Source: a virus | Virus record (IMG/VR): IMGVR_UViG_3300028733_000004 | Coordinates: 1 to 56,346 of that record | DNA: 56,346 nucleotides | Strand: one strand, 5' to 3' | Part shown: positions 4,873 to 56,025 of the stretch, piece by piece | Numbering within the stretch: position 1 is the first letter of the stretch | Layout of the letters: each line of letters opens with the position of its first letter | Notes under the pieces: generated by a model | What the model was told of the DNA's origin: nothing | The model's input: only the letters and a program-made list of their open reading frames with translations | Databases searched by the model: none | Position numbers and translations under genes: made by a program

Positions 4873-5556
4873 TTAAAATGTTGTATCATAGGTTATATCA
4901 TCAAATACAATAGGTACCAGTTTCTGGAACTGTCTTAATAATGGGCACATGAGTTCCCTCATCTGTGGATGAGCTACCTTTTGAGCACGTTGTTTGAAAA
5001 TAGTTCTCCATTCCCTTAGGTTAGCAGTAACCACTATCTCAGTTTTCAGTGCATTAGGTAATACTGATCTAGCTTCCTGAGCAACCCAACCTTCTTTTAA
5101 TAAATCCAGGTAAACCTGTTCACTGTTAGACATTGAGTGATACCATAATTTGGTAACCCTATCAATCTTCATGTAGTTGTGTTCATTGAGGATTTTAACT
5201 AAGTCAAGTTGTTCATCACTAAGCCAGAATGGCTGGATGAATGTAAGCTCATTACCAAACTTTTCCTTTGCATAATTACAGTACCTTGTACTTTCCTGGG
5301 AAAATGACGCAATTCGATGACGTACTAATTCATGGGAGATACCCCGGTCACATACAAATAAAACTGAAATTGACTGATGTTCTAGTACTGATTCATGGCC
5401 AAGTTGTATTAACTTAGCAATAAACTTCTCAGCACTTTCATCAGTAATAAGTTCTTCACTCTTGTAACAGGTTCTTCCTGCACGTTCAATGCTCTGTATA
5501 ATTGTCTTGCCATTAATATCTGACAAGATCTGGGTAGATGGTTTAATTAATTTCAT
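4873..5556 (-). CDS. thyX: Flavin-dependent thymidylate synthase ThyX
   Basis: ThyX converts dUMP to dTMP using methylene-tetrahydrofolate, FAD and NADPH. The signature RHR(x)7S is clear (R79-H80-R81 in ELVRHRIASFSQESTRY), and the C-terminal QRAQKVAHPQMRELM fits the substrate-binding helix of the family. At 227 residues it has the usual length. It lies in a minus-strand operon between a hypothetical gene and the DUF3310 gene, with intergenic gaps of 1-2 nt. Its presence matters because two ThyA-superfamily genes lie at 44797 and 45723: if ThyX makes the dTMP, those proteins are free to do something else. Confidence 0.95.
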   Translation of the reverse strand: MKLIKPSTQILSDINGKTIIQSIERAGRTCYKSEELITDESAEKFIAKLIQLGHESVLEHQSISVLFVCDRGISHELVRHRIASFSQESTRYCNYAKEKFGNELTFIQPFWLSDEQLDLVKILNEHNYMKIDRVTKLWYHSMSNSEQVYLDLLKEGWVAQEARSVLPNALKTEIVVTANLREWRTIFKQRAQKVAHPQMRELMCPLLRQFQKLVPIVFDDITYDTTF

Positions 5557-5992: not shown

Positions 5993-6105
5993 GTTCTAGT
6001 TAGTTTATTAATTATATATAACAATATGATCAGGGTAGTACCAACTAGAAAACTATTTGCAATACCACTATGGCCATATATATAATAATAACTAACTCAT
6101 TCTAT

Positions 6106-25012: not shown

Positions 25013-25027
25013 TTAAATTAATAACAC

Positions 25028-39233: not shown

Positions 39234-40184
39234 ATGGCAAGATACAACAACCAATTTAAAGGACGACTAAAAGCATACCTGATCAAGCGATTGGGTATGT
39301 TTGACTATAAGCATGGTTGGATGAAAGGCAATTGCCCCTCATGTGAAAAAGAGTTTAAATTTGGGGTAAACATATCTCTGAATAGAACTAACTGTTTTGT
39401 ATGTGGCTACAGTCCTTCACCCTTGGATATGGTAATGGACTTAGAAGGTCTTCATACTTATGCTGAGACCCTAGACTTTTTAGATCATGGAGATTTTGAA
39501 GGCTATGAATTTAAAGAAGTTAAGGTAGAACTAAAGGAAAGAATTGATGTATATCTACCTGATGGCTTCAGACTACTTAGTTTAGGTAAATCTCAATTAG
39601 CCAGGTCTGCAAGAAACTATATTAGTAAAAGGGGGTTTGATATAAAGAAAATGAGTCGTAAGGGCTGGGGCTATTCTAACAGTGAAAAGTATTTCGGTTA
39701 CATCATAATACCCTTCTACTCCCACAATAAACTAATATACTTTAATGCAAGAAATTATATGTCTACTGGCCCCCGGTATAATAACCCAGATACTGATGTA
39801 ACTGGGGTAGGCAAGTCAATGATATGGTATAATAAAGATGCATTCTATATGTATAAACAAGTTTATATACTAGAGGGTGCCTTTAATGCTGAAACATTGG
39901 GGGATAAAGCAACTGCATCTGGTGGCAAGTTTGTTTCAAGGTACCAGATAAATGATATTATCAAATCACCTGTTGAACGAATAGTAATTGTATTAGACCC
40001 AGATGCTATTGATAAAGCAGTTGACTTGGCATTAAAACTGGTTGATTATAAAAGGGTGAAAGTAGTAATACTCCCAGATGGTGAGGATGCTAATTCTTTG
40101 GGTAAAAAGGAAACAATGAAACACATATACAAAGTTAGATACCAAAACAGGCAAGATTTAATTAAACTAAAAAATGACTTATGA
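39234..40184 (+). CDS. DNA primase, DnaG-type
   Basis: Residues 30-58 form a CHC2-like zinc finger with four Cys (NCPSCEKEF, then NCFVCGY; C34, C37, C54, C57). The middle resembles the catalytic N-terminal core (ARNYISKRGFDIKKM, YIIIPFYSHNKLIYFNARNY). The Toprim domain has VYILEGAFNAETLGD (the conserved Glu), IVIVLDPDAIDKA (DxD) and VVILPDGEDANSLG. At 316 residues it is a compact version without the helicase-binding domain. The stop overlaps the next start (ATGA). It synthesises RNA primers with the helicase encoded upstream. Confidence 0.88.
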   Translation: MARYNNQFKGRLKAYLIKRLGMFDYKHGWMKGNCPSCEKEFKFGVNISLNRTNCFVCGYSPSPLDMVMDLEGLHTYAETLDFLDHGDFEGYEFKEVKVELKERIDVYLPDGFRLLSLGKSQLARSARNYISKRGFDIKKMSRKGWGYSNSEKYFGYIIIPFYSHNKLIYFNARNYMSTGPRYNNPDTDVTGVGKSMIWYNKDAFYMYKQVYILEGAFNAETLGDKATASGGKFVSRYQINDIIKSPVERIVIVLDPDAIDKAVDLALKLVDYKRVKVVILPDGEDANSLGKKETMKHIYKVRYQNRQDLIKLKNDL

Positions 40185-40462
40185 TACTCTGGAAAAAATA
40201 CAAAGGGATAACTAAAGAATTAATAGATTCAGTGGGTTGGGAATTAGCAGGTGATAGTAGGTCTAGGTATTCTAATACTTTTATTGTAATGGTTAAATTT
40301 AAAAACAGTAAAGATCCATATGAGCCAAGGTTTGCTAATATAATAGCATGGGCTGACAAACATGCATACCTTAACGCTAACGATCACGTATACCTTAACA
40401 TAAATGGTATGTCTGGTTTAACTGAAGTATCCCATTACTCAAGAATAAACCTACCAAAATGA
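40181..40462 (+). CDS. Small hypothetical protein (93 aa)
   Basis: A basic 93-residue protein overlapping both neighbours by 4 nt (ATGA junctions), so it is part of the primase-helicase translational unit. It is beta-rich (TFIVMVKFKNS, HVYLNINGMSGLTEV), perhaps a small OB- or SH3-like barrel. No known motif. A role at the replication fork is suggested only by position. Confidence 0.6.
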   Translation: MILWKKYKGITKELIDSVGWELAGDSRSRYSNTFIVMVKFKNSKDPYEPRFANIIAWADKHAYLNANDHVYLNINGMSGLTEVSHYSRINLPK

Positions 40463-41277
40463 GAGACCCCTCTATACATATCAGAAAATCAAACCTAACC
40501 TGCCTACTAAAGGAGCATGGTCTTTCCCAAAAAGATATTGAAAGTATACTAACCCAGGCAAGGAAAATATCATGTGATAACAGGTCAGTATCAATTACCA
40601 ATGACAAACTAAAGAAGGACTTAACCAGGGTACTTAAAAGTAGTAAGGGAGATACTAACCTATTGGCTGACATCATATATTCAGTCCGAATAAAACTAAA
40701 ACATAGGGGGATTAAAAAACTACATGAGACAGATAGGGACTGGCTACAATTAAAAGAACTCACCAAACTGTGCAACCAGTTCTGTGAGGATTTTGAGTTA
40801 GATAAGCGGGCTGGTTATATAAAGTATATAAGTCTGGCCTTCCCTAAAATACAATCTATGAGGGCTTACGTATCTAAGTTCATAAATATGTATGAAAGTA
40901 TATGTTCTCAATATGAGGCAGTTGGAAAGCTTAAAGAGGATAAAAATCCTGAAGAAACCCAGGAATTACATGACCTGTTTATATCTAAGGTTGCAGACAG
41001 GACAGGTATATTTGAAACTTACATGAACAATGATCAAAAGATGTTAGCATTCTATAATGCAGGCAAGTTATGCAGAGAGCTGGGGGTAGACCCAAGTATT
41101 TTCATTGAAGCACAATTTGAGTCACTGGAATGGTGCAATGGTATCCCACAACCAGAAGCATTATATGGGGATAAAGCAAAAGAGAGATTAAACAAGTATT
41201 TATATCAAAACCAAATAACAGTTAAACCACAAGCCAGTAAGGATTTTTGGAAAGGCTTAAAAAACAGAACAGCATGA
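40459..41277 (+). CDS. Hypothetical helical protein, helicase-loader candidate
   Basis: A 272-residue, mainly helical, charged protein with no ATPase motif. Notable segments are LKEHGLSQKDIESILTQARK near the start and DKRAGYIKYISLAFPKIQSM in the middle. It lies between primase and the UvsW-like helicase and overlaps both neighbours by 4 nt. T4 encodes a helical helicase loader (gp59) beside its replication genes, so a loader or single-strand handling role is possible, but no sequence match can be claimed. Confidence 0.6.
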   Translation: MRDPSIHIRKSNLTCLLKEHGLSQKDIESILTQARKISCDNRSVSITNDKLKKDLTRVLKSSKGDTNLLADIIYSVRIKLKHRGIKKLHETDRDWLQLKELTKLCNQFCEDFELDKRAGYIKYISLAFPKIQSMRAYVSKFINMYESICSQYEAVGKLKEDKNPEETQELHDLFISKVADRTGIFETYMNNDQKMLAFYNAGKLCRELGVDPSIFIEAQFESLEWCNGIPQPEALYGDKAKERLNKYLYQNQITVKPQASKDFWKGLKNRTA

Positions 41278-41483
41278 TGAGACACAAAAAATTTAAAGCA
41301 AAACTAGCTGAGATATCTGGTTACAAAACCACCTATGCTCAATTGAACCTAAGCCAAACTATTAAAATCATGAGGGCAGTTAAGAAACTGTTTGGTGATA
41401 TGAGCATGATTGAGTACCATGAACTAATAGAAAAGTTTCCTAATTTAGGAAAGGGTGCTGATTTTCATGATCTGCCATTCTGA
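41274..41483 (+). CDS. Small hypothetical basic protein (69 aa)
   Basis: Start chosen at 41274 (ATGATGA overlapping the upstream TGA) rather than an in-frame ATG at 41247, which lies deeper in the previous gene. A basic N-terminus (MMRHKKFKAKL) is followed by two predicted helices (NLSQTIKIMRAVKKLFGD; MIEYHELIEKF). The stop base is shared with the start of the SF2 helicase gene. Possible accessory subunit; no family recognised. Confidence 0.55.
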   Translation: MMRHKKFKAKLAEISGYKTTYAQLNLSQTIKIMRAVKKLFGDMSMIEYHELIEKFPNLGKGADFHDLPF

Positions 41484-42964
41484 TGAAAAAAATAAACATA
41501 GAAATTATAAACTATAACCAGGGCCAGTTAGATGGTCCTATGGTTATTATGAATAAGCTATATGAAGAGTTTGGTATAAAACACCCAAATGCTTGGCATA
41601 TAAAGATGGCTGGTGGTAGGGAATGGGATGGCATAGTACATTACATAACTGAGTATGGTAAATTCAAAATAGGTCTTTTACCCATAATCTATAAAAGGTT
41701 GGTTGAGTTAGAATATGAGGTTAAAGTTATTGATAACCGAGAACCCATAAGAATTGTACCTAAGGTACCAAAGATGGTAGGTAATTTAAAACCAAGGCCA
41801 CAACAAAGGCAGGTAATGGATGCTATCATAAATAACAAAGTTGGAGGTAAGCCATTCTATATAGGTACACAAAACTTAGCTGTTAACTTTGGTAAGTCAA
41901 TGATAATGGCTGGACTATACCTTGCATTTAAAAAAGGTTTAAAAACCCTATTACTAACTAATGATAAGGACTGGCTAGAACAATCAAGGTCTGAATTTAA
42001 GGACTTACTACCTGGTGAGAATATAACATTTGTACAGGGGGGTAAGGTATTTAACTGGGGCAACTTCTCTATAGGTATGGTACAATCAATATCAAGGAAC
42101 CTGGGGAACTACCAAAAGGAGTTAAACAACATTGATATGTTACTTATTGATGAGGGTGACCTTATTGATAATAAAACATATAAGGGCGTAATTCAACACT
42201 TATGGGGAACATCAGTTAGGCTAATTTTCTCAGGTTCTATATACATGAGTAAGCTTAAGAAAGACCTGGTTCATAATATGAATATAAGGCAATTCGCTGG
42301 GGATGAACTAACTATCATCAAGTTAGATGAGATGATTAAAAAGGGGTACTCTACCCCAGTAATTGTGAAAATGGTCCCAACAGAGTATAACAAGGATAAG
42401 AAAAAACTGGGAGGCTATCCCGATGAGTATTCAAAAGTTATATCAACTAGCCAACATGCTTATGGTGTATCCCTGGATAGGACAAGGTATAACTTACAAT
42501 ATGGTAGGACTCCCATGCTTATAGTAACCAAGTATATTGAGCATTGTGAAAAGCTTTATTCTTATTATATGAGTTATATATCTTTACTAGAAAAGTCTGT
42601 AGGCAGGAAATTAGTAGTGAAAAGAGTTCACCATGATACTAAAGATAGGAAAAAGATTTTATCTAACTTCAGAGATGGAAAAATTGACATCCTTATATCT
42701 AATACATTTATTGCCAGAGGGAAGAACTTCCCACTATTACAGTATATGCAGAATACTGCTAGCATGGACTCTAATGAAAAGACACTTCAGCTTATGGGTA
42801 GGTTGGTTAGAACACATGAGAGTAAGACTAAAACTTACTTAGATGATATTCAATACAATGGTAAATATCTTTCAAAACATGCTAAGCACCGAAAAAACTA
42901 TTATACTAAAGAGAACCTTAAAGTGATCATGTTAAATAGGTTAACACCCAAGAAGTCCTTATAA
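41483..42964 (+). CDS. SF2 DNA helicase, UvsW-like
   Basis: A recombination and fork-regression type helicase. Motifs in order: Q-motif-like PRPQQRQVMDAI, Walker A-like NLAVNFGKSMI (residues 131-141, with GKS), motif Ib region LTNDKDWLEQSRSEFKDLL, DEAD-like IDEGD in MLLIDEGDLID, motif III FSGS, and motif VI QLMGRLVR. An N-terminal 95-residue region (WDGIVHYITEYGKFKIGLL) resembles the small double-strand recognition domain of T4 UvsW. 493 residues is typical. Confidence 0.82.
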   Translation: MKKINIEIINYNQGQLDGPMVIMNKLYEEFGIKHPNAWHIKMAGGREWDGIVHYITEYGKFKIGLLPIIYKRLVELEYEVKVIDNREPIRIVPKVPKMVGNLKPRPQQRQVMDAIINNKVGGKPFYIGTQNLAVNFGKSMIMAGLYLAFKKGLKTLLLTNDKDWLEQSRSEFKDLLPGENITFVQGGKVFNWGNFSIGMVQSISRNLGNYQKELNNIDMLLIDEGDLIDNKTYKGVIQHLWGTSVRLIFSGSIYMSKLKKDLVHNMNIRQFAGDELTIIKLDEMIKKGYSTPVIVKMVPTEYNKDKKKLGGYPDEYSKVISTSQHAYGVSLDRTRYNLQYGRTPMLIVTKYIEHCEKLYSYYMSYISLLEKSVGRKLVVKRVHHDTKDRKKILSNFRDGKIDILISNTFIARGKNFPLLQYMQNTASMDSNEKTLQLMGRLVRTHESKTKTYLDDIQYNGKYLSKHAKHRKNYYTKENLKVIMLNRLTPKKSL

Positions 42965-42999
42965 AAACCCCAGGTACTACTAATTATAAACAAAACAAT

Positions 43000-43407
43000 A
43001 TGTCAACTAAAGTAAAGAAAAAGAAGTCACTACTGCCTGACTTGTCCAAGATGGATATCCTAAAGCCATTATCAATTACTGATATAGGGTCTAATGGTGA
43101 TCCATGCTTTGGTAAGGCTTATGATCTGTCAACTAAAGAATGTAAGATGTGTGGAGATTCTGAATTATGTGCAATAGTATTTGCCCAGACAATGAATACC
43201 ACAAGAGGTGAAATTGAGAAGGAAAAACATTTCAAGGACATGGATGTATTAATTGATATTCCAGGTGTAAAAAAATACATGAGGAAATTGAAGCGTACGG
43301 GGTATATTAAGAAGGATATTATTACAATGTCCATGGCTAAGTTTGAAATAGCTAAATCAGATACAAGGGATATATATAGAAGTTTAAACAATTTAAAAGA
43401 AGAGTAA
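43000..43407 (+). CDS. Putative zinc-binding protein (135 aa)
   Basis: Residues 33-58 hold four Cys in a zinc-ribbon-like pattern: DPCFGKAYDLSTKECKMCGDSELC. The rest is helical and Lys-rich (VKKYMRKLKRTGYIKKDI). No enzymatic motif. Its stop shares a base with the HNH start (TAATGG). Upstream is a 35-nt leader with TAAACAAAAC, similar to leaders of other replication genes. Probably a nucleic-acid-binding accessory protein. Confidence 0.6.
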   Translation: MSTKVKKKKSLLPDLSKMDILKPLSITDIGSNGDPCFGKAYDLSTKECKMCGDSELCAIVFAQTMNTTRGEIEKEKHFKDMDVLIDIPGVKKYMRKLKRTGYIKKDIITMSMAKFEIAKSDTRDIYRSLNNLKEE

Positions 43408-43913
43408 TGGATGATAATATACCAGGCTTCCCAGGTTACCATATAGCTAGAGGTGGGAAGTTATACAATAGGGGAAAGCCAAAACCAACGTATGTTCATA
43501 AGAATGGGTACTTAAGGTCTAGGTTAAGAAATGAAAAAGGTAAAACTTATAACAAAACTATACATAGGCTAGTTGCCATAGCTTGGGTACCAAATCCAAA
43601 GCCTGGTATATATAATACTGTATTACATAATGATAATATAAGGTTACACAACTTTGATACAAACTTACACTGGGGTACACAACAGGAAAATATAGACCAG
43701 GCTATAAAAGATGGTATCATGAATGTAAAGGGTAAGAATAATCCCATGTATGGTGTACACAGAGATTGTAGGGGTAAAGTAAACAAAACCTTATCAGGTA
43801 ATAAGAAAACTCAGGTAAGGGGATTATACAAAACAGGAAACTATAAACTTACTGAGTTAGCAAAAAAGTTTTCAGTAGGAACTAAGAATATAAAACGAAT
43901 TATAAACATTTAA
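43407..43913 (+). CDS. Free-standing HNH homing endonuclease
   Basis: The NUMOD4-like start IPGFPGYHIARGGKLYNRG, then NGYLRSRLRNEKGKTYNKTIHRLVAIAWV, then the HNH core VLHNDNIRLHNFDTNLHWGTQQENIDQA (His, Asn-Asp and Asn) are diagnostic. The C-terminal 60 residues carry NNPMYGVHRD (a NUMOD-type motif) and a helix-turn-helix-like LTELAKKFSVGTKNIKRI. Such genes are mobile: they cut related phages lacking the insertion and are copied by repair. It sits between the zinc protein and the dUTPase-like gene, whose start may have been altered by the insertion. Confidence 0.85.
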   Translation: MDDNIPGFPGYHIARGGKLYNRGKPKPTYVHKNGYLRSRLRNEKGKTYNKTIHRLVAIAWVPNPKPGIYNTVLHNDNIRLHNFDTNLHWGTQQENIDQAIKDGIMNVKGKNNPMYGVHRDCRGKVNKTLSGNKKTQVRGLYKTGNYKLTELAKKFSVGTKNIKRIINI

Positions 43914-43924
43914 AACTTAACATT

Positions 43925-44797
43925 TTGGACATAAGAGATGTAAAAGAAGAACCACAAGTAGTAGAAGGTGGGATGTATTTAGAAAAGATTTATGAGTTAC
44001 AAAAGGTATTGGTAGACCACTATGTAAAAATTGAAGGCCTACCACCTTACCCAATTAGTGTAAACACAAAACCCAGCCAGATAATCCTGAAGGATTTTAC
44101 GGGTAGGGTAATTGAAGAACTTGCTGAAGGGTTTGAATCTCACCTATTGATTGATGAATTAACAAGTAACAACCTTTATTGGAGTGATGAGGATGGGAGT
44201 TCTAATGATTATCAACAAATGGTAAACCACCTTCAGAACTTAAATGAAGAACAGGCAGATGCAATGCATTTCATGACTGAGTTAATGATCTATTGCAACA
44301 TTCAACCAGATGATATCCAAGCTTGGATTGATGCTTATGTAAAGAAGTACAATTTTAATAGTATAAATGCTGGTGCTCCTTATGTTGGTACCGATGGTGA
44401 TGTAATAGCTAATGCTATAGAATTAGGCTATGCTATATTTGAAGGTGATTTAACTCTTAGTAGGGAAGGTGTTAACTTGGTTAAATACATTGATGAAGTA
44501 AAACTTAAGTATCTACCTGGGGCAAGATACCTATCAATGGAATTGATGGAGTTATCTGAAAAATTGCTTTGGAGAGTTACCTACCATATCAACATTTCAA
44601 GGAACTGTTTGAAAAACAAACCCTGGAAACAGTCTGGTGTTATGACTGATGAAACTCTATACCAATCTAAAGTAGTTGAAGCATTTGTATACATGATGAC
44701 TTACTTTGGGTTTATTGGTATGGGAAGCAAGGAGATATACTACTTGTACTTCAAGAAGAATATGGTTAATCAATTCCGTATTAAATCAAACTATTAA
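43925..44797 (+). CDS. All-alpha dUTPase/dCTPase-family enzyme
   Basis: A nucleotide pyrophosphatase of the dimeric dUTPase/MazG superfamily, hydrolysing dUTP or dCTP to the monophosphate. Metal-binding motifs are VIEELAE (E64, E65, E68) and NEEQADAMHF (E109, D112). The C-terminal MGSKEIYYLYFKKNMVN followed by QFRIKSNY matches the conserved 'eei...Y..K...N..RQ..gY' ending. The domain begins with YLEKIYELQKVLVDHY. The frame's first start is TTG at 43925; an ATG at 43973 (residue 17) falls at the domain start and may be the real one. T4 gp56 (dCTPase-dUTPase) belongs to this superfamily. Direct linkage to two ThyA-like genes suggests a pool-sanitising role in base modification. Confidence 0.75.
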   Translation: MDIRDVKEEPQVVEGGMYLEKIYELQKVLVDHYVKIEGLPPYPISVNTKPSQIILKDFTGRVIEELAEGFESHLLIDELTSNNLYWSDEDGSSNDYQQMVNHLQNLNEEQADAMHFMTELMIYCNIQPDDIQAWIDAYVKKYNFNSINAGAPYVGTDGDVIANAIELGYAIFEGDLTLSREGVNLVKYIDEVKLKYLPGARYLSMELMELSEKLLWRVTYHINISRNCLKNKPWKQSGVMTDETLYQSKVVEAFVYMMTYFGFIGMGSKEIYYLYFKKNMVNQFRIKSNY

Positions 44798-45726
44798 TGG
44801 GCAAGGTATCTGGCTCAATCCAAGAAAAATGCCACAACTTGGAATTTGCAACCTCCCAGGAAGCTTGGGAAGGTTTAAATGAAATGTTCATATACCATGA
44901 TAAAAGGTTATTTAAACATGGAGCATCATTTACATCGGGTATGTCTGCTGTATATAACATATTCATAAAGATAAGGAAAGCTTGGGTAGACCCAGAATTC
45001 GATTATGGTTTAATGTTTAATTACAGGGAACAGAAATGGACCACTCTAGTGAATAATTATTTAAACTTAAATAAACTAGACCTACTTAGGTCTAAAGTTC
45101 GCTACTTCCAGTCTAAGTATAACCAAAACTATAATATATCTTACTCATTTGATAACTCCCATGATAATGGGAAAGGTTGTTTATTAGCTGCAACATTTTC
45201 AAGGAGATTAAATGATGACATCCCAGTTATAACTGTAATGTTAAGGTCATCAGAGATAACTAAAAGGTTAATATTTGATCTCCTATTAGTACAAAGGATG
45301 GCAGAATATGTATATGGTAAAGAAGTAACCTGCATGATAAATATATTTGCAACTCAAATGTATTGCAATACAGAAACACTGGTAATGTATAATACTCATA
45401 GGCCACTTGCTGATGTACTTGAAGAAAACAAAAAGAAGTGGATGTCAAAGGGTATAGCAAAAGATTCATGGCCTGAAAGTTTATTAAAAACATTCAATAC
45501 CTTCATGGATAAACCTGAATCATTTGGGAGTTATAAGGTTTTCTTAAGAACTGCAAAATGCTTAAGACCTGATTATTACAAGGGGCACTATAAACCTTTA
45601 ATTGCAGTTAATATGGTTTTAGAATATGATGAGGGCATTGAATACCCCGAAACCGTCATAAGCTTCTCACAAAGAAAAGCATACAAAAAGAAACATAACA
45701 AACAACTTAAAAAACTAGTAGTATGA
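44797..45726 (+). CDS. ThyA-superfamily protein A (divergent hydroxymethylase-like)
   Basis: The thymidylate-synthase fold is recognisable from GKGCLLAATFSRR (candidate nucleophile C128), MLRSSEITKRLIFDLLLVQRMAEYVYG and NIFATQMYCN. Compared with TS the RSxD motif reads RSSE (E153 for the Asp), eight residues later the uracil-reading Asn is Asp (D161), and the TH.Y motif is TQMY (Q187 for His, Y189 kept). The 'PC' of TS is 'GC'. An Asp at this position marks T4 dCMP hydroxymethylase, so a cytosine-specific enzyme or an inactive partner of the next protein is likely. It begins at the last base of the dUTPase-like gene and overlaps the next gene by 4 nt. Similarity is distant, seen by eye. Confidence 0.55.
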   Translation: MGKVSGSIQEKCHNLEFATSQEAWEGLNEMFIYHDKRLFKHGASFTSGMSAVYNIFIKIRKAWVDPEFDYGLMFNYREQKWTTLVNNYLNLNKLDLLRSKVRYFQSKYNQNYNISYSFDNSHDNGKGCLLAATFSRRLNDDIPVITVMLRSSEITKRLIFDLLLVQRMAEYVYGKEVTCMINIFATQMYCNTETLVMYNTHRPLADVLEENKKKWMSKGIAKDSWPESLLKTFNTFMDKPESFGSYKVFLRTAKCLRPDYYKGHYKPLIAVNMVLEYDEGIEYPETVISFSQRKAYKKKHNKQLKKLVV

Positions 45727-46484
45727 GGATTTACGCAAACGCTTACGAGTTAATGTCAGAAACTGGCAGAAACTTATGGGAAATGGGTGCAGAGGTTAAA
45801 CCTAAAACTTATCAAGATAAGGTAATTGAGGGTGATGACAACTTTATTACAAAAGAACTTATCTGTGAACAGTATTGTTTAACTGACTTACCAGATGAGG
45901 ATTTATTATTCTTATTTGACCCACGTTCTAAGGACTGGACAAAGGCAGAATTTGTTGAAAGGGTATCAATTGGTAAAAGCCAAAATCCTGGGGAAGCCTA
46001 TAAACTTAGGCCAGATCTTTGGGAGCAATTCATAAACAGTAGAGGGAAGTTCGACTACAACTATAATGACCGGATGAGGTATGAAAAAGCCTTGTTTAGC
46101 AGATTAGAGCTGGATAACTTGTCTATAGTAATAAAGCAACTAATGTTTGACCACCAGACAAGGAAGGCAGTATTACCAATCTACACCCTAGATGATGTAT
46201 CCAAGATACCAGAGGGCAAAAGGATACCTTGTTCAATGTATTATGACTTCTTAGTAAGGGAAGTAAATGGTGAAGAACAATTAAACATAACCTACCACCA
46301 AAGGTCTGCAGATTATGTTACCCACTTTGGTAATGATGTATTCCTTGCCTGGAAACTAATGCAATATGTTGCTTCACTGATAAAAGTTAAACCAGGGTAC
46401 CTATACCATACCATAGATTCACTACACAGTTACAAAAAAGACTGGGTAAAACTTAAAACATCAGTAGGAGACTTCAAAAAATAA
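45723..46484 (+). CDS. ThyA-superfamily protein B, candidate dCMP hydroxymethylase
   Basis: A clear ThyA-superfamily protein, 253 residues. The catalytic loop is RIPCSMYYDFLV (C170), preceded by DHQTRKAVLP, the usual 'SRR' phosphate-binding region. Then come HQRSADYVTHFGNDVFLAW (R194, D197) and IDSLHSYKKDW (H235, Y237). Counting without gaps from D197, position +8 is D205; in E. coli TS it is Asn177, which reads uracil. T4 dCMP hydroxymethylase has Asp there, so 5-hydroxymethylation of dCMP is the best guess. N204 next to D205 leaves dUMP specificity possible with a one-residue gap. Its start overlaps the sister gene by 4 nt. Confidence 0.72.
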   Translation: MRIYANAYELMSETGRNLWEMGAEVKPKTYQDKVIEGDDNFITKELICEQYCLTDLPDEDLLFLFDPRSKDWTKAEFVERVSIGKSQNPGEAYKLRPDLWEQFINSRGKFDYNYNDRMRYEKALFSRLELDNLSIVIKQLMFDHQTRKAVLPIYTLDDVSKIPEGKRIPCSMYYDFLVREVNGEEQLNITYHQRSADYVTHFGNDVFLAWKLMQYVASLIKVKPGYLYHTIDSLHSYKKDWVKLKTSVGDFKK

Positions 46485-46498
46485 TACTACTAACCTGT

Positions 46499-46526
46499 AA
46501 TGGGAGGACTTAATTGTTCTCCCATT
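46499..46526 (+). promoter_or_regulatory. Hairpin before the DNA polymerase gene
   Basis: A perfect 8-bp stem (AATGGGAG at 46499-46506 with CTCCCATT at 46519-46526) with a 12-nt loop, 14 nt after the hydroxymethylase-like stop. It covers an in-frame ATG at 46500, so initiation there would be masked. No T-run follows. It may tune polymerase expression. Confidence 0.45.
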
Positions 46527-46541
46527 CGTCACCTTATAAAC

Positions 46542-48821
46542 ATGATATCAAGGTACCACATAATAAAGAATTTTAAAGAACTTAAACTACTTGTAAAAGC
46601 TTGCAAGGAAACTAAGTATGCAAGCTTTGACTTTGAATCTAATGCTAAAAGCATATACTCTGATGAGTTCTACCCTACTATACTATCCGTATCATTTCAA
46701 GTAGGTTCTTCAGTTATATTACCACTAGCTCATTTTGATTCACCATTCTTATCAGGTAAAAATAAACCAACCTGGCTTAAGATGTTAGAATACTTTGGTA
46801 GACATGTAATTGAGAATCCAGATATAACTAAGGTAGCATGGAATTGGAAGTTTGATAATCAGATAATGGCAAGGTACAACATCTGGCATAAGGGTAGAGC
46901 CTTAGATGGTATGCTTGCAAAATATCTCCTGGATGAGGAAAGGCCAATGGGTTTAAAAGATATGGTAAAAAGGTATCTACCTGAATTTTCAGGCTATGAA
47001 AATTATGAAGGTAGTAAATTGCCATGGGATAAAAAACCTTTAGAGGGGTTAAGTAAATATAGTGGACAAGATTCTGACTGTACCTTACGACTTATGCTAT
47101 TCTTTGAAAAGAAACTCATTGACTTAGGCTTCTATAGTTTATATAGAAATTTAATTATGATGGCTAGCAGAGTACTGGAGGATGCTGAAAGAAATGGTAT
47201 GAAGCTTGATATTGAACTAAATCATGAACTTGGTATTAAATATGATGCATTAACAGAAGAGGCCCAAAAGAAACTTAGGGAGATGTCAAGGGTTATGAAG
47301 TTTGAAAAGGCTTTAATAAAAGACAGGAGGGAAGCTTATATATCAAAGATAGAGGATGAAATTGAAGCTATAAATAATGAGATTGAAGAACTTGATGACC
47401 AAAAGAAAATCAATGCAGCTAATAAAAAGATTGATTCCAGGGAGGAAAAAATAAGCAGGTTAACAGTTGGTGACTTTAGAACTAATGATGAAAAGAAACT
47501 TATAGAGCCAATTAACTTTGGTTCACCATTAGTAATGGGGGCTTTACTTTACACCCATAAAAAAGGGTTTAAATTCCCCATACAAAACTATACTGATAAA
47601 GGTGCACCATCTACAGCTGAAGAGGATATACTAAAACTAAAGGATTATGATAAACATGGTTTTATAGATGGGCTTATAGAGTTAAGGGGGTTCCAAACCA
47701 TTAATTCCACATTTGTAAAAGGTATTGGTGAAAAGGTTGGATCAGATGGTAGGATTCACCCTAAGTTTAATATACATGGAACAACTACAGGAAGGCTTAG
47801 TTCTAACGACCCAAATTTTCAAAATCTCCCAAGGGTTACAACCAACGAGGATATTAAAAGGATGATGATACCAGGTGAAGGCAAGATATTCATCATGCTC
47901 GATTATTCTCAGGCTGAGTTAAGGGTACTTGCTCATCTTGCAAAAGAAGAAACCATGCTTATGTGGTTTAGAACTGGTAGGGATATTCACCTTGCTACAG
48001 CTTGTAAGAAATACAAAACTGATTATGAGGAAACACTTGTAATATATAAGGATGAACAACACCCCGAATATAAAACGTGGAAGAAGAGAAGAAAACAAGC
48101 TAAGACAATTAATTTTGGTATAGCTTATGAACAAACTGCTATGAAGTTATCTGAGTCACTATCTGAGCCAGGTGCACCAGTTTCAATTGAAGAAGCTCAG
48201 GTTGAGTTAGATGCTTGGTTTTTAGAATTTCCAAAGGTAAAGAAATTTATTGAAAAACAACATAGGTTTGCAGAGAAACATGGTTGGGTTAAAACAATGT
48301 TTGGTAGGAAGAGAAGGTTACCCGGAGTATATAGTGAAGTATATAGAGAATATCTAGAGGCATTAAGATTTGCATCTAATTCACCTATTCAGGGAACTGC
48401 TACTGACTTTGCACTATTCTCATCCATATTAATATGGGAAAAGATTAAACTAGGTGAGTTACCAAGAATACATGAAAACACAACAGTACATGACTCCATT
48501 GTATATGAGGCAGATCCTAAGGATGTAACTCCATTCTTAATCCATGCACTATGGTCAATATGCAAGAACCCAAGTACTAAACAGTACTTTGGCTTCCAAA
48601 TTGATGACGTTGAGATGGATGCTGACTTTGGGGTTGGAAGAAACTATGGTGAAGAATTGCCCTTTGTACCAGGCTATGACTATACTAATCTACTATCAAA
48701 AGACTTCAATAAAGATGATTATTACAAGGAATTTAATAAAGTACGGGACATCCCTTATTCAGATTTTCCAATTAAGTTCAATGATAACTTTAATAAAAGT
48801 AAAGCCCTATATGCAAGATAA
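46542..48821 (+). CDS. DNA polymerase, family A with 3'-5' exonuclease
   Basis: 759 residues from the ATG at 46542 (MISRYHIIKN); an in-frame ATG at 46500 lies within a hairpin. The proofreading exonuclease has Exo I YASFDFESNA and Exo II-like NWKFDNQIM. The polymerase domain has motif A MLDYSQAELRVLAHL (Ala where Pol I has Ile), motif B RRKQAKTINFGIAYE and motif C TVHDSIVYE. A charged coiled segment (residues about 255-320) forms the thumb. No 5' nuclease domain; a separate 5'-3' exonuclease is at 51729. It follows the hydroxymethylase-like genes. Confidence 0.93.
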   Translation: MISRYHIIKNFKELKLLVKACKETKYASFDFESNAKSIYSDEFYPTILSVSFQVGSSVILPLAHFDSPFLSGKNKPTWLKMLEYFGRHVIENPDITKVAWNWKFDNQIMARYNIWHKGRALDGMLAKYLLDEERPMGLKDMVKRYLPEFSGYENYEGSKLPWDKKPLEGLSKYSGQDSDCTLRLMLFFEKKLIDLGFYSLYRNLIMMASRVLEDAERNGMKLDIELNHELGIKYDALTEEAQKKLREMSRVMKFEKALIKDRREAYISKIEDEIEAINNEIEELDDQKKINAANKKIDSREEKISRLTVGDFRTNDEKKLIEPINFGSPLVMGALLYTHKKGFKFPIQNYTDKGAPSTAEEDILKLKDYDKHGFIDGLIELRGFQTINSTFVKGIGEKVGSDGRIHPKFNIHGTTTGRLSSNDPNFQNLPRVTTNEDIKRMMIPGEGKIFIMLDYSQAELRVLAHLAKEETMLMWFRTGRDIHLATACKKYKTDYEETLVIYKDEQHPEYKTWKKRRKQAKTINFGIAYEQTAMKLSESLSEPGAPVSIEEAQVELDAWFLEFPKVKKFIEKQHRFAEKHGWVKTMFGRKRRLPGVYSEVYREYLEALRFASNSPIQGTATDFALFSSILIWEKIKLGELPRIHENTTVHDSIVYEADPKDVTPFLIHALWSICKNPSTKQYFGFQIDDVEMDADFGVGRNYGEELPFVPGYDYTNLLSKDFNKDDYYKEFNKVRDIPYSDFPIKFNDNFNKSKALYAR

Positions 48822-49254
48822 AATAACACAAATCAGTAAGATTAAGCGGGATGTATTAACTGTACACTATAAGGGTGAGAAAATAAACATAAACATTTCC
48901 CAGGAATTATCCATAAGTGAAAATGTTATCAACTCTCAATTAAAAGAGAGTCCTTCTAGTTATGCATTCCTTTGTTTACTAAGAGATAAACAAGTAAAAC
49001 TCCGTGATACTCTAGAAAGGAGCAAGGATGTTGCCTATAGTGAAGCTTATATATATTATAAGGGGTCTGGTAGTGGCATTACCAATGAAACAGCACAACA
49101 TAAGGCTAACTCTAACCCCAAATATAAAAGCTTATATAAAAAATACCTAAGGGCAGTTAGTAAGGCAAGCAACTTTATTTCAATATGCAGGGCCTATGAG
49201 GGTAGGGAAAAGATATTACAAACAGTATCAGCTAATCTACGTAGAGAACACTAA
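48811..49254 (+). CDS. Hypothetical protein, UvsY-like mediator candidate (147 aa)
   Basis: Start at 48811 (ATGCAAGATAAA), overlapping the polymerase end by 11 nt. The same frame runs open further upstream to 48544, but that part is a shadow of the polymerase gene. The protein is basic and helical. The second half (SEAYIYYKGSGSGITNETAQHK, then YKSLYKKYLRAVSKASNF, then LQTVSANLRRE) looks like a conserved helical domain. Size, charge and location near RecA and SSB genes are reminiscent of T4 UvsY, the recombination mediator, but this is not a motif match. Confidence 0.55.
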   Translation: MQDKITQISKIKRDVLTVHYKGEKININISQELSISENVINSQLKESPSSYAFLCLLRDKQVKLRDTLERSKDVAYSEAYIYYKGSGSGITNETAQHKANSNPKYKSLYKKYLRAVSKASNFISICRAYEGREKILQTVSANLRREH

Positions 49255-49293
49255 AGAATTTCTATAAACTATTAATATATAAACAAAAACATT

Positions 49294-49704
49294 ATGAATT
49301 TAGCAACAATGCTTGGCCAGTCTCTTATTTCAAAAGATACTGCAATGTTAATCAACAGTGAGTTATACAAAAGGGGTCAGGTAACTGAGAACCGGGTTAT
49401 AATCATTACACCTAAAGAAATTGAGGGTAGGACTGCATCTGGTATAATCATACCCGGAGAAGTAACAGAAGGGGTACCAAGAAAGGGTATCTGTGTTCAA
49501 ATGGGAGAGTTCACTGAAGAGAATCGGACCTATACCTCTGTAGTTGGGATTGGTAATGTACTTACCTATGGCTTATATGCTGGTAAGGAAATTGATCTAC
49601 TAGAACCCCTATTAGTAAAAGGTTTTAACCCTGACAAACATGAACTAAGGTGTATATCAGTTAATGAGATTATGTATTCTGAGTATCCAATTAAACTAAC
49701 ATAA
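49294..49704 (+). CDS. GroES-like co-chaperonin
   Basis: Residues 30-130 follow the Cpn10 fold: RVIIITPKEIEGRTASGIIIPG (the 'T.gGIilP' mobile-loop pattern), then RKGICVQMGE, then VGIGNVLTYGLYAGKEIDL and the final strand LRCISVNEIMYSE. Phage-encoded GroES proteins (as T4 gp31) replace the host co-chaperonin so that the host chaperonin can fold the capsid protein. No GroEL-like gene is present in the window. A leader with ACTATTAATATATAAACAAA precedes it. Confidence 0.8.
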   Translation: MNLATMLGQSLISKDTAMLINSELYKRGQVTENRVIIITPKEIEGRTASGIIIPGEVTEGVPRKGICVQMGEFTEENRTYTSVVGIGNVLTYGLYAGKEIDLLEPLLVKGFNPDKHELRCISVNEIMYSEYPIKLT

Positions 49705-49716
49705 TAAAGTAAAGTC

Positions 49717-50517
49717 ATGAGAGCAGAGAAGGAAGACAAAACTAAAAAGAAGAAGTTATCTACAGGTGGTAAAACTGCCCGTGAGAAAATGATGGACCGG
49801 AAAAAAGACCTTGAAAAACGTAGTGCAGGTGGTGGATTCATATTCCCAAAAGTTGGTACAACAAGGCTACGCCTAAAGTCACCAGGTGATGATGAAGAAT
49901 TAGCCATTGAGGTAATTCAGTTCTACCTGGGTAAAGAATTGGGTGGTGTGGTATCCCCAGCAACATTTGATGAACCCTGTCCATTTATGGATAAGTACAA
50001 AGAACTAAAGGATTCAGATGATGATGATGACAAAGCATTAGCAAAACGTCTGGTACCTAAAAGGAAGTATGCAATTGGGTGTGACTCTTACAAGGACGAA
50101 AAGGGTAAAGAAGTTGATCAAACTGACAAAGCAGTACTTGTTGCAAGAGGTGCTTACCAGGACATTACTGAACTCTACCTTGATGAGGATGAGTGGGGGG
50201 ATATGACTGATAAAAAAGAAGGGTATGATATTAAAATTATCAGAACTGGGGTTGGCCAACTAGATACATCTTATTCTGTATCACCTTGCCAAAAGAAAGC
50301 ATTACCCAAAGACCGTTCAAATACTTGCGACCTTGAAAAAATTGTAAGGTCACAAATTCCTTCATTTGAGGAACTTGAGGATACACTTGCTAAGTTCTTA
50401 AACTCAGGTGAGGATGGGGATGCTCCAGCAAAAAAACCCAAGGATAGTAAATCCAGGGACAAGTTCAAAGAAGGTCTAAAGGACAAAAAGAAAAAGAAAA
50501 GAGTAAGAGATATTTAA
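49717..50517 (+). CDS. Putative single-stranded DNA-binding protein
   Basis: 266 residues between the GroES-like and RecA/UvsX genes, with a hairpin terminator after it, indicating high expression. The core (residues about 35-215) has an OB-like strand order with aromatic residues (GGGFIFPKVGTTRLRLKSP, EVIQFYLGKELGG, KYAIGCDSYKDEKGK, KAVLVARGAYQDITELYLDE) and paired Cys (C88, C122 and C193, C205) that might bind zinc. This resembles T4 gp32-like SSBs. Instead of an acidic C-terminal tip, the tail is Lys/Asp-rich and ends KKKKKRVRDI. Identity by context and pattern. Confidence 0.6.
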   Translation: MRAEKEDKTKKKKLSTGGKTAREKMMDRKKDLEKRSAGGGFIFPKVGTTRLRLKSPGDDEELAIEVIQFYLGKELGGVVSPATFDEPCPFMDKYKELKDSDDDDDKALAKRLVPKRKYAIGCDSYKDEKGKEVDQTDKAVLVARGAYQDITELYLDEDEWGDMTDKKEGYDIKIIRTGVGQLDTSYSVSPCQKKALPKDRSNTCDLEKIVRSQIPSFEELEDTLAKFLNSGEDGDAPAKKPKDSKSRDKFKEGLKDKKKKKRVRDI

Positions 50518-50543
50518 TCCTACCCTAATAAAACAACAACTAG

Positions 50544-50578
50544 TAAGGGGCGGTATATTATATGTCGCCCCTTATTTC
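50544..50578 (+). terminator. Terminator/attenuator after the SSB-like gene
   Basis: A perfect 9-bp GC-rich stem (TAAGGGGCG at 50544-50552 with CGCCCCTTA at 50566-50574), 13-nt loop, followed by TTTC. It lies 26 nt after the stop codon. Confidence 0.7.
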
Positions 50579-50599
50579 ATGTACTAAACAAAAAGATTC

Positions 50600-51748
50600 A
50601 TGGCAAAGAAAACTAAGATAGGTATAACCATACCTACAAAAAATGAGTTAATGAAAAGGTACCCTGGGATGTCAGTAGCTTCTGAAAATGATGATGATAG
50701 ATACCCAAGAATACCATCAAGGCATTTAGCCTTCAATTACCAAACAGGGGGAGGTCTTCCATATGGTAAAATCATGGAGATATATGGAGAAGAGTCTTCA
50801 GGTAAATCTCTAATGGCCTATGATTTCGCTTATGTAACCCAAGCATTAGGTGGAGTAGTTCTAATAGCAGATGCAGAACAAGCATTCACTAATGCCTGGG
50901 CAATAGCAAATGGATTAGATTTAACAAGGATAATAAGGTTACCTTCAACAGTAGTTGAAGAGATATCTGATTGGCTTGCAGATATGGCAATATATTGGAG
51001 ATCACAATTAACCCACAATGAACCCATATTATTCATATTAGACTCAACTGCTGCGTTGGATTGTATGGTAAATATCAATTCAAAAATGGTAGACTCTAAA
51101 GCCGATATGGGTAATAGAGCAAAAGCTATTTACAAGATGCTAAGGGTACGTTCTGAGTTAATGTTTAAACTAGGTGTATCACAGATATACATTAACCAAT
51201 TAAGAAAGAATCTAAAAGCTGGTATGTTTGAGAATCCTGATACTACACCAGGAGGCGGTGCAATGAAGTTTTATGCTTCTATACGTATTGCTTTTTATGG
51301 TGGTAAACAAATCCTTGAAAAGATAAAAGGTAAAGATAGGAAAGTAGGCAGGGTAACTTCAATAAGGGTTATGAAAAATAAAGTTGGGCCCCCAAGGGGA
51401 ACTATAAAGGGTGCACCCATGTATTTCAACCAGGATGGTAAAAAAGATATTGGCTTTGATAAGTATTATTTTTTATCCGACTCATTACTAGAAGCCGGTG
51501 CTATAAGCAAAAACAATGGTGGTACTTACTCTATAAAGGGTGTAACTTTATGTAGGGGGGATGAGAAATTCCTTGCATTAATTGAAAAAGATGATGATCT
51601 TCGTAGGAAGTTATTACGTAAAGCTAATATCAATACTATCAGCACTACAAGAAAGAAAATTGAAGGCTTAGGAGTTAACCTATTTCCAGTAGGTAATGTA
51701 AAGTATACGTCACAGGTAAAGGAGGCTGATGAGAATGAAGATGAATAG
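50600..51748 (+). CDS. RecA/UvsX recombinase
   Basis: A strand-exchange ATPase for recombination-dependent replication. Walker A GEESSGKS (residues 63-70), preceded by PYGKIMEIY, is the RecA type; then VVLIADAEQAFTNAWA, Walker B-like ILFILDSTAAL and YINQLRKN (the RecA L2-side 'QIR' motif), then TPGGGAMKFYASIRI. Length 382 fits UvsX. The C-terminal tail is acidic (KEADENEDE). It follows the SSB-like gene and overlaps the exonuclease gene by 20 nt. Confidence 0.9.
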   Translation: MAKKTKIGITIPTKNELMKRYPGMSVASENDDDRYPRIPSRHLAFNYQTGGGLPYGKIMEIYGEESSGKSLMAYDFAYVTQALGGVVLIADAEQAFTNAWAIANGLDLTRIIRLPSTVVEEISDWLADMAIYWRSQLTHNEPILFILDSTAALDCMVNINSKMVDSKADMGNRAKAIYKMLRVRSELMFKLGVSQIYINQLRKNLKAGMFENPDTTPGGGAMKFYASIRIAFYGGKQILEKIKGKDRKVGRVTSIRVMKNKVGPPRGTIKGAPMYFNQDGKKDIGFDKYYFLSDSLLEAGAISKNNGGTYSIKGVTLCRGDEKFLALIEKDDDLRRKLLRKANINTISTTRKKIEGLGVNLFPVGNVKYTSQVKEADENEDE

Positions 51749-52637
51749 TTTATTAATAATTGATGGAGAAAATCTATTACACAGGGCATACCATAAGTTC
51801 TTAGGCTTCAAGTCTACTGAAGGAGTTCCAACTGGTGCAATATATGGTTTTCTAAAGATCCTACACTCTAATATATTTAGGTTCAAGCCTGAATATGTTA
51901 TTGTTACATTTGATAATGGCAGATCAAAACATAGGACTAACATACTTCCAGGTTATAAGACACGACCTAAAAAACTGGGTATGGATTATGAGTCATTACA
52001 AAAACAAAAAAAGTTGATAATGAAGATCCTTAGAAGGTTGGGAGTACCTTATGTATTTGATAAATCATTCAGTAATGAATGGGAGGCTGATGATTACATT
52101 GCTTACTTAGCTAAAACCTTTGAGGGTGAAGTAACTATACTATCCTCTGACAAAGATTTTCACCAACTGATATCTAAAAGGGTAAAGGTAATGAGCCCAT
52201 CTAAAGACCAATTAATCACTGAAGTTAATTGCATAAAGTTAACTGGGTATAATCCTGACCAATGTGTTGATTGGTTATCAATGGTGGGGGATGAATCCGA
52301 TAGCATACCCGGCTATAGAGGCATTGGAGAAGTAAAAGCTACTGCATTACTTAAGAAATATAACTGTATAGAGAAATTTATAATGGGCGATTACAAAGAA
52401 AGTAGGGTAAATAAGCAAACACTTAATGAAGTAATGACTAAGAATAGGCACCTTATTGATCTTAACTTCTTTATAAGAAAATACCCAATGGTAAAAAACA
52501 TACCCATAAAATATGGGAAGGATGAATTTATAAACAGGAAGCTAGTAACCATGTTTAATGGGTACTCTCTATCCTCATTCCAGTCTACTGAATTTATAAA
52601 CACCTTTAAAGAATTAAGCAAATGGAAAGTAAAGTAA
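51729..52637 (+). CDS. 5'-3' exonuclease (Pol I N-domain / FEN family)
   Basis: Removes RNA primers and flaps. The N-terminus LLIIDGENLLHRAYHKFLG (metal-binding Asp), then YVIVTFDNGRSKHRTNILPGYKTR, EWEADDYIAYLA, and ILSSDKDFHQLIS carry the acidic cluster. VDWLSMVGDESDSIPGYRGIG is the helix-hairpin-helix region. The family A polymerase here lacks this domain, so the two act together. Three in-frame ATGs exist (51729, 51735, 51741); an AGGAGG-like sequence lies just upstream of the first. It overlaps the RecA end. Confidence 0.88.
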   Translation: MRMKMNSLLIIDGENLLHRAYHKFLGFKSTEGVPTGAIYGFLKILHSNIFRFKPEYVIVTFDNGRSKHRTNILPGYKTRPKKLGMDYESLQKQKKLIMKILRRLGVPYVFDKSFSNEWEADDYIAYLAKTFEGEVTILSSDKDFHQLISKRVKVMSPSKDQLITEVNCIKLTGYNPDQCVDWLSMVGDESDSIPGYRGIGEVKATALLKKYNCIEKFIMGDYKESRVNKQTLNEVMTKNRHLIDLNFFIRKYPMVKNIPIKYGKDEFINRKLVTMFNGYSLSSFQSTEFINTFKELSKWKVK

Positions 52638-53272
52638 AACGTATTATGTTTGTGGGTCCCAGTGGGATAGGCAAGACCCACCTATCCAAGTTTATTGCAG
52701 ATAAATATGGTATACCATTCATAAGTGGTTCATACTCTGATATGGTACCATCAACTAAAGATCAAAGCCATGCTGATATGGTAAGCAAGGATTCAAAGGT
52801 AATTTATAATGAAGATTATAAGTTGCTATGGGCAAGGGCAAAGGTATACTTAGGCTATACTACTAAAGGTTTAAGTTTTGTAACCGACAGGTCATATATT
52901 GATAGCATTGCATATTTCATATACAAACTTTCAAAAGTAATACCCAAGTGTGAAATTGAAGGTTTTGAACATGCAGCAAAAATGCTATTATTCAGGGACT
53001 GTACCCACCTAATTGTAATGCAATGTACTGAATCAATGGTTGATACCTGGAGAGTTGAAAATAATGAAAAGAGGATATTAAATACATATTTCCAGTGGAT
53101 GGTATCTATGGTAATGATAGGAGTACTTAAAAGATTGGGCTTAAGAACTGGTAAATACTTTGGCCATACATACAGTTACATGCCAATGGGTATAAAAGTA
53201 CTTGTTTTAAATAACAGGAACATGGAGAATAACAAAGTACTAATCAGTAAATTCTTGGGCAATGTCAAATAA
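52622..53272 (+). CDS. P-loop kinase, candidate deoxynucleotide kinase
   Basis: Walker A GPSGIGKT (residues 12-19) follows a hydrophobic strand (RIMFVGPSGIGKTHLSKFIADKYG), and FVTDRSYIDSIAYFIY carries the DRS motif of nucleoside or nucleotide kinases of the AAA_28 or thymidylate-kinase type. A region with WRVENNEKRILNTYFQWMV may be the lid. At 216 residues it fits such kinases. It lies in the replication block and could phosphorylate dNMPs, including a hydroxymethylated one if the ThyA-like pair makes it. Substrate unknown. Confidence 0.65.
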   Translation: MESKVKRIMFVGPSGIGKTHLSKFIADKYGIPFISGSYSDMVPSTKDQSHADMVSKDSKVIYNEDYKLLWARAKVYLGYTTKGLSFVTDRSYIDSIAYFIYKLSKVIPKCEIEGFEHAAKMLLFRDCTHLIVMQCTESMVDTWRVENNEKRILNTYFQWMVSMVMIGVLKRLGLRTGKYFGHTYSYMPMGIKVLVLNNRNMENNKVLISKFLGNVK

Positions 53273-55989: not shown

Positions 55990-56025
55990 TTAAACTATTA
56001 ATAACTAAACAAACACAAACATGGG

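Follow-up and report, generated by a model that had tools for sequence, protein, structure and literature searches.

Two Thymidylate Synthase-Fold Proteins in a Phage Gene Cassette Probably Directed at dCMP: Computational Analysis of an IMG/VR Virus Record

Introduction

The IMG/VR virus record IMGVR_UViG_3300028733_000004 (56,346 bases, analysed over its whole length and below called the window) carries three overlapping genes, P1, P2, and P3, followed by a gene for DNA polymerase I (PolA), and the question raised by this locus is whether P3, a protein of the thymidylate synthase (TS) superfamily, and its diverged neighbour P2 act on cytosine nucleotides or in ordinary thymidylate synthesis. 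Phages whose cytosines are modified gain protection of their DNA against restriction and CRISPR (clustered regularly interspaced short palindromic repeats) systems, and enzymes of the TS superfamily are a usual entry point to such modification. A preliminary description of the three genes had proposed a 5-hydroxymethylcytosine pathway. According to the present analysis P3 modifies carbon 5 (C5) of deoxycytidine monophosphate (dCMP) with a rough probability of 0.7, and the cassette would then serve nucleotide-level cytosine modification before replication; this figure covers C5 modification of dCMP by P3 and not the hydroxymethyl product alone. The statements cited below by PMC number are taken from excerpts of the respective papers.

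Family, Fold, and Active Site of P3

P3 matches the Pfam family Thymidylat_synt (PF00303) with 61.3 bits at a cut-off of 24.3 and an expectation value (E) of 1e-16. AlphaFold2 models of P2 and P3 were built from alignments of the window and related loci, and the P3 model has a predicted local distance difference test score (pLDDT) of 89.9 and a predicted template modelling score (pTM) of 0.90. In VIA-align comparison its best match is AfhB (9iqc; Z 21.7, 2.8 A over 220 residues), MilA reaches Z 20.9, and thymidylate synthases are found from 19.8 downward; 49 of the 50 matches listed belong to the TS superfamily by title, the remaining one being titled a designed serine hydrolase. The T4 dCMP hydroxymethylase is absent among these 50 listed matches, an absence that carries no information. 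By Foldseek E value MilA comes first for both the P3 and the P2 model, while the P3 profile finds 9iqc and 9iqu (both AfhB) as the best PDB sequences at E 5e-12 and MilA at E 1.5e-7.

The TS-superfamily fold and the catalytic Cys, Arg, Ser, and His are thus both present in P3, whose active-site residues are C170, R147, R194, S195, D197, D205 (equivalent to position 177 of the E. coli enzyme), H235, Y237, and S171 (equivalent to position 147), and 30 positions are invariant across 17 diverse members. Since the chains of the window family (4 panel members) end 14–16 residues past the HxY motif, P3 has no C-terminal tail to seal the TS site, and so it shows neither the Asn177 nor the long tail of a canonical ThyA. 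In the excerpt of PMC6400193 the sealing role of this tail is described and T4 dCMP hydroxymethylase is found without it too; for this reason the short tail was rejected as evidence against the use of folate.

The preliminary description had placed Asp at the 177-equivalent of both proteins by an ungapped count, which runs from RSSEITKRLIFD to D161 in P2 and from RSADYVTHFGND to D205 in P3, and both residues were reproduced. Ungapped counting is unsafe in general, as it gives Ala for SPO1 gp29 and M6 gp58, where Asn is found only by alignment. In the alignments made here the Asp is invariant in 14/14 P3 and 17/17 P2-family proteins, the residue preceding it in P3 being variable (N, D, S, or T). 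A 17-protein alignment of P3 found 324 relatives, 80 of which were analysed, and after subtraction of 11 duplicates and 2 fragments the position is D in all 67 distinct proteins (69 with the two fragments); among the P2-type proteins (80 rows, merged to 62 distinct ones by joining near-copies) it is D in 62/62. The Asp at the Asn177-equivalent is no accident of counting.

A panel of 22 proteins falls into two sets. The 19 members of known or candidate cytosine type (four window-family P3 proteins, ten distant-module proteins, HTVC200P, RL38J1, RB69, LC53, and T4 gp42) all have Asp at position 177 and S or T at position 147, with Ser in P3 and Thr in T4 gp42 and RB69 ORF048c. The three uracil-type or T-making members, SPO1 gp29, M6 gp58, and E. 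coli ThyA, all have Asn at 177 and N or H at 147. In the MetaGPA study (PMC8670742) positions 177 and 147 best told modified phage contigs from unmodified ones, the modified set having mostly Asp177. According to the MilA study (PMC5175136), cytosine enzymes have Asp in common at this place and uracil enzymes have Asn, and the combination of Ser167 and Arg126 goes with deoxy substrates. At the equivalents of the latter two positions P3 has S195 and R147 (P3 numbering).

P2, a Second Protein of the Same Fold

P2 has no Pfam match above the cut-off, its PHROG matches are only to families of unknown function, its single sequence finds nothing in the PDB, and its profile finds there one unrelated match at E 1.3. 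The P2 model (pLDDT 86.1, pTM 0.86) is matched by Foldseek to MilA (probability 1.00, E 7e-6), AfhB (E 1.5e-5), and T4 dCMP hydroxymethylase (E 7e-5), and each of the 24 PDB chains at E <=0.001 belongs to the TS superfamily. The same is true of all 50 VIA-align matches listed, which include AfhB at Z 12.7 (4.1 A, 184 residues), MilA at 12.0, and thymidylate synthases at 9.8 or less.

The sequence signal is weak. The P3 profile detects one P2 protein of locus L028 (E 1.1e-4); in the other direction, the P3 of locus L027 is detected by the iterated P2 profile at E 7.8e-4, both in small databases, and direct hhalign comparison of the window families of P2 and P3 gives E 0.04 only. Among 762 control open reading frames (ORFs), which include T4 gp42, M6 gp58, E. 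coli ThyA, HTVC200P, RL38J1, the window P3, and, as a C-terminal piece only, SPO1 gp29, the first P2 profile finds only the window P2 below E 0.1, and the iterated one finds RB69 ORF048c at E 5e-4 and otherwise only P2 below E 0.1. P2 is assigned to the TS superfamily by its predicted fold, so that the earlier statement of two ThyA-superfamily proteins holds for P3 by Pfam and fold and for P2 by predicted structure.

The Cassette in Related Loci and in Distant Phages

P1 exceeds the cut-off of Pfam dUTPase_2 (PF08761; 31.9 bits, cut-off 22.9, E 1.9e-7), in agreement with its preliminary assignment to the all-alpha dUTPase/dCTPase family, and matches phrog_12184 at E 1.3e-16; the P1 profile has no match among PDB sequences. 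The motif EExxE...EExxD, which we take to be that of the all-alpha nucleoside triphosphate pyrophosphatase (NTP-PPase) family, is invariant in 14/14 aligned P1 proteins, and a C-terminal block around LKNKPWKQ is common to P1 and the dUTPase/MazG-type genes of the distant modules described below (hhalign E 7e-12, 79 columns).

The three genes lie where they had first been placed (Table 1) and overlap by 1 base (P1/P2) and 4 bases (P2/P3). Eighteen IMG/VR loci were found with P3, four having an identical P3 (L002–L005), 13 a full-length P3 at 51–62% identity, and one a fragment (L019); L002–L005 and L019 were dropped from the alignment of relatives. The order P1-P2-P3-PolA is conserved in 13/13 usable relatives, and three of these have two P2 genes.

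Ten distant phage records were also inspected, namely, Vine and Cozz (Gordonia), KimJongPhill (Streptomyces), Strzyga (Brevundimonas), Opt-155 (Serratia), PMBT14 (Pseudomonas), P744 (Yersinia), Muddy (Mycobacterium), and two Manatee Spring phages. All ten contain a kinase (annotated as P-loop, polynucleotide, or thymidylate kinase), a pyrophosphatase (annotated as dUTPase, MazG, or NTP-pyrophosphatase), P2, P3, and PolA; the kinase and pyrophosphatase genes lie ahead of P2, the P2 gene is labelled “hypothetical” or “pyrimidine hmase synthase,” the TS-like gene is next, and PolA follows directly or a few genes on. In one Manatee record P2 is unannotated and was found at E 2.3e-36, while the nine annotated P2-type neighbours match the window P2 with hhalign probability 97.2 and E 4.6e-11, and the distant P3 proteins match the window P3 at E 9e-33 with 23–31% identity. 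The two proteins, their order, and the key residues are the same as in the window; the distant modules differ in having Phe for Tyr237, Gln for Lys148, and, in seven cases, a deaminase gene. In Mycobacterium phage Muddy (L034) the genes gp46–gp49 comprise a thymidylate kinase, a dUTPase, the P2-type gp47, and the Asp-type gp46, which lies one gene ahead of PolA.

Among the 67 distinct IMG/VR loci a P2-type gene is near P3 in 50, and in 36/53 when the 14 loci from which the P2 profile had been built are excluded. The P2-P3 pair is therefore old and widespread, not universal, and P2 is mostly unnamed; what is new here is the recognition that this neighbour of P3, mostly labelled “hypothetical” in distant phages, has a predicted TS fold. 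Keyword searches of open-licence literature, none aimed at the pair by name, did not meet it, which is no proof of novelty.

The two proteins are not equivalent, as the residues of a dCMP site are in P3 and P2 is far more diverged. Its recurrence next to P3 in distant phages suggests a two-component enzyme, and a tentative, possible reading is that P2 and P3 form an obligate TS-fold pair with divided active sites. The TS active site borrows arginines from the partner subunit. The corresponding Arg126/127 place, located in P2 from the order of helices and strands and not by residue-level superposition, seems to be QN in 11/17 aligned window-family P2 proteins, the window included, and is Arg in 6/17, those of two-copy lineages. 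Because P2 itself seems to be without such an arginine, its Cys, Arg, and Asp site would need the cross-subunit Arg147 of P3, with which a heterodimer would complete it. The same QN pair, together with Leu at position 147 of the window P2, could speak for P2 as a non-catalytic remnant or regulator that merely scaffolds P3; this is unlikely, for among the 62 distinct P2-type proteins all have D161, 61 have C128 (the other has a gap there), and 59 have R150, when nearly everything else has changed, and such retention is typical of an active site in use.

Substrate and Product

Although P2 and P3 could be suspected of ordinary dTMP (deoxythymidine monophosphate) synthesis or another uracil-type role, since Pfam and GenBank names speak of thymidylate synthase and a deaminase accompanies seven of ten distant modules, such a role is very improbable in view of Asp177 throughout and Ser/Thr147 in P3. 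In addition, the window has a separate flavin-dependent thymidylate synthase, ThyX, with the RHR(x7)S motif RHRIASFSQES, and among 18 related records, many of which are fragments, ThyX is found in 3 and canonical ThyA in 2. At L008:3653-4639 a canonical Asn177 ThyA (RSCDLFLGVPYN) is flanked on both sides by Asp-type P2 genes of the cassette to which it belongs. Given the window ThyX and this ThyA between P2 copies, P2 and P3 need not make dTMP, and the plain thymidylate synthase reading was rejected on Asp177, Ser/Thr147, and the separate ThyX/ThyA genes. Methylation of dCMP to 5-methyl-dCMP by P3 is a little less remote, though still quite improbable: according to PMC8670742 an Asn to Asp exchange there changes the substrate of TS to dCMP and its product to 5-methyl-dCMP, whereas the missing tail of P3 stands against it, with the qualification that T4 dCMP hydroxymethylase is tailless as well (PMC6400193).

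Between hydroxymethylation and hydroxylation there is evidence on both sides. T4 gp42 has, like P3, the TS fold, the catalytic Cys, Asp177, Thr or Ser at 147 (Thr in T4 gp42, Ser in P3), and no long TS tail, and its system likewise includes a phage-encoded pyrophosphatase (gp56 dCTPase, with the gp1 kinase beside gp42). It differs from P3 in having Gly at position 173, where P3 has His/Phe, in its separate place in the tree, and in the P2 alongside P3, and no clear gp1 counterpart was found for the window. In the tree P3 forms a clade of its own (support 100/97), the RB69 group forms another (100/99), T4 gp42 falls outside the P3 clade on a long branch whose placement is unsure, and the nearest clade is that of SPO1 gp29, M6 gp58, and HTVC200P, with weak support (85/79). 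SPO1 gp29, a dUMP (deoxyuridine monophosphate) hydroxymethylase, and M6 gp58 share the TS fold and catalytic Cys with P3 and differ in Asn177, Asn147, Gly173, and a long C-terminal part. MilA, a cytidine monophosphate (CMP) hydroxymethylase, is a tied best structural match with Asp at the 177 place, but has Ala and Lys where P3 has the deoxy-type Ser167 and Arg126. The 5-hydroxymethylcytosine product would be favoured by the weakly supported nearest clade and by the 147/177 signature and missing tail shared with T4 gp42.

A role of P3, together with P2, in flavin-dependent 5-hydroxylation of dCMP after the manner of RB69 ORF048c/AfhB, giving DNA with 5-hydroxycytosine or a derivative, is rather unlikely; still, 5-hydroxycytosine is a live rival because P3 forms a separate clade with His/Phe173 and its best structures are AfhB and MilA. 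An enzyme of the TS superfamily is the source of 5-hydroxy-dCMP in RB69 and other Mosigviruses according to the excerpt of PMC13390438, which names the Mosigvirus enzyme and not ORF048c; this enzyme is taken to be RB69 ORF048c, to which AfhB is identical over the 122 residues compared, so that the function assigned to both relies on that excerpt and on the PDB titles. AfhB leads for P3 by profile and for both models by VIA-align Z, its short tail, Asp177, and loss of Gly173 (shared by the RB69 group and the P3 clade) resemble P3, and ORF048c, with Thr147 for the Ser of P3, was the one non-P2 protein below E 0.1 among the controls reached by the iterated P2 profile. However, the three RB69-group proteins compared have Asn169 and Val173 against Asp169 and His/Phe173 in P3, the two clades are separate, hhalign of P3 gives a tie between the RB69 group (1.5e-16) and the TS/T4 group (2e-16), and AfhB and MilA are less than one Z unit apart for both models, with MilA first by Foldseek.

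Several facts weigh against C5 modification of dCMP by P3 or against its hydroxymethyl form. AfhB, which P3 matches best in the PDB both by profile and by Z, is a flavin-linked dCMP hydroxylase; the folate-side position 173 is His in 64/67 P3 relatives and Phe in 3/67; and the enzymatic activity of the P3 clade is a predicted one for every member. The deaminases of the distant modules (dCMP or cytidine deaminase, 7/10) would feed dUMP too, no P2 was found in the examined stretch around P3 in 17/67 relatives, and no P2-type gene in the examined stretches of RB69 (12 kb), RL38J1, HTVC200P, and LC53. A glycosyltransferase of family 2, the only transferase family of this kind searched, is found in 0/18 related records. 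Finally, the window and 10/18 related records (L190–L199, all ten of those of at least 60 kb) carry a homologue of C5-cytosine methyltransferases, which is thus a near-core gene. The usual motif of such enzymes is PPCQ; here motif IV reads P-x-C-G, with the Cys and ENLP/ENVP kept in the 11 aligned proteins. If C5 were fully blocked, little would be left for this methyltransferase to act on; partial replacement could explain its presence, as could action of the enzyme on modified DNA.

Of the pathway first proposed, the nucleotide-level and cytosine-directed character is retained, given the pyrophosphatase family of P1 and the TS-superfamily proteins with Asp, while 5-hydroxymethylcytosine as the product is not established, AfhB being the best profile and Z match and P3 a clade of its own.

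Proposed Pathway

In the favoured reading, C5 modification of dCMP, P1 is predicted to hydrolyse dCTP (deoxycytidine triphosphate) and probably dUTP (deoxyuridine triphosphate) too, by which unmodified dCTP would be removed and dCMP supplied. In P3 Cys170 would be the nucleophile and Asp205 would read the cytosine ring, and the group added to C5 of dCMP would most likely be a hydroxymethyl from methylene-tetrahydrofolate. P2 may act as a partner subunit of P3 or carry out a second step; after phosphorylation the product would be incorporated by the neighbouring PolA, with ThyX separately supplying dTMP.

The link to a phosphorylating enzyme is weak. A P-loop protein is indeed present at position 52622, where the preliminary description had seen a kinase, but its assignment as a deoxynucleoside monophosphate (dNMP) kinase is not established: hhalign with the distant-module kinases covers 64 P-loop columns only, and the analogy with T4 gp1 is weak for this reason.

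Features of the Window and Its Relatives

Table 1. Positions of the cassette genes, key codons, and other nucleotide and DNA-modification genes in the window.
Feature	Position	Strand	Description
P1	43925..44797	+	290 aa, TTG start; all-alpha NTP pyrophosphatase, dUTPase_2/dCTPase family; long insert between its halves
P2	44797..45726	+	309 aa; diverged thymidylate synthase-fold protein keeping C128, R150, D161; usual P3 neighbour
P2 codons Cys128 to Asp161	45178..45279	+	Active-site-type region
P3	45723..46484	+	253 aa; TS-superfamily enzyme, cytosine-type residues
P3 Asp205 codon, Asn177-equivalent	46335..46337	+	D in 67/67 distinct relatives
DNA polymerase I (PolA)	46500..48821	+	PF00476 E 1.2e-73; next gene of the cassette
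ThyX, flavin-dependent thymidylate synthase	4873..5556	-	PF02511 E 2.6e-47; separate dTMP source
P-loop protein, possible nucleotide kinase (weak assignment)	52622..53272	+	AAA_28 E 1.4e-7; phrog_2107 thymidylate kinase E 1.2e-4
C5-cytosine methyltransferase homologue	6070-7149	+	

Tail sheath and tail tube genes at 23156-25489 indicate a contractile-tailed phage. Megablast of positions 40000-56346 against phages gave no match, and one relative lies in a metagenome-assembled genome binned as Dysosmobacter, which is too little for naming a host. A gene of the DUF3310 family on the minus strand at 4532-4870 adjoins ThyX and matches PHROG families called nucleotide kinase. Upstream of P1, a possible homing-endonuclease-like ORF (NUMOD3, below cut-off) occupies 43407-43913; it is probably mobile, because its relatives vary in position among the related loci (L010, L011, L014, L017, and L019). 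In some relatives the DNA polymerase I ORF is far longer than that of the window (L013:8799-12311; L019:451-3963), perhaps by inteins, and in others PolA is in two pieces with a gap, perhaps by introns; L006, L015, and L016 are also listed in this long or split group.

Significance

The P3 clade differs from both the T4 type and the RB69 type. All of its members examined carry the cytosine-type residues, and a second TS-fold protein is usually encoded alongside. If C5 modification of dCMP by P3 is true, altered cytosine would be expected in the set of cultured phages that carry the module, none of which is, to our knowledge, known as modified. If the two-component reading of P2 and P3 is also true, one half of the enzyme has gone unrecognised because P2 is mostly annotated as “hypothetical,” and the pair would show how a homodimeric enzyme fold can split into two unequal genes and would represent a new class of dCMP-modifying enzymes across many unrelated phages, the therapy phage Muddy included.

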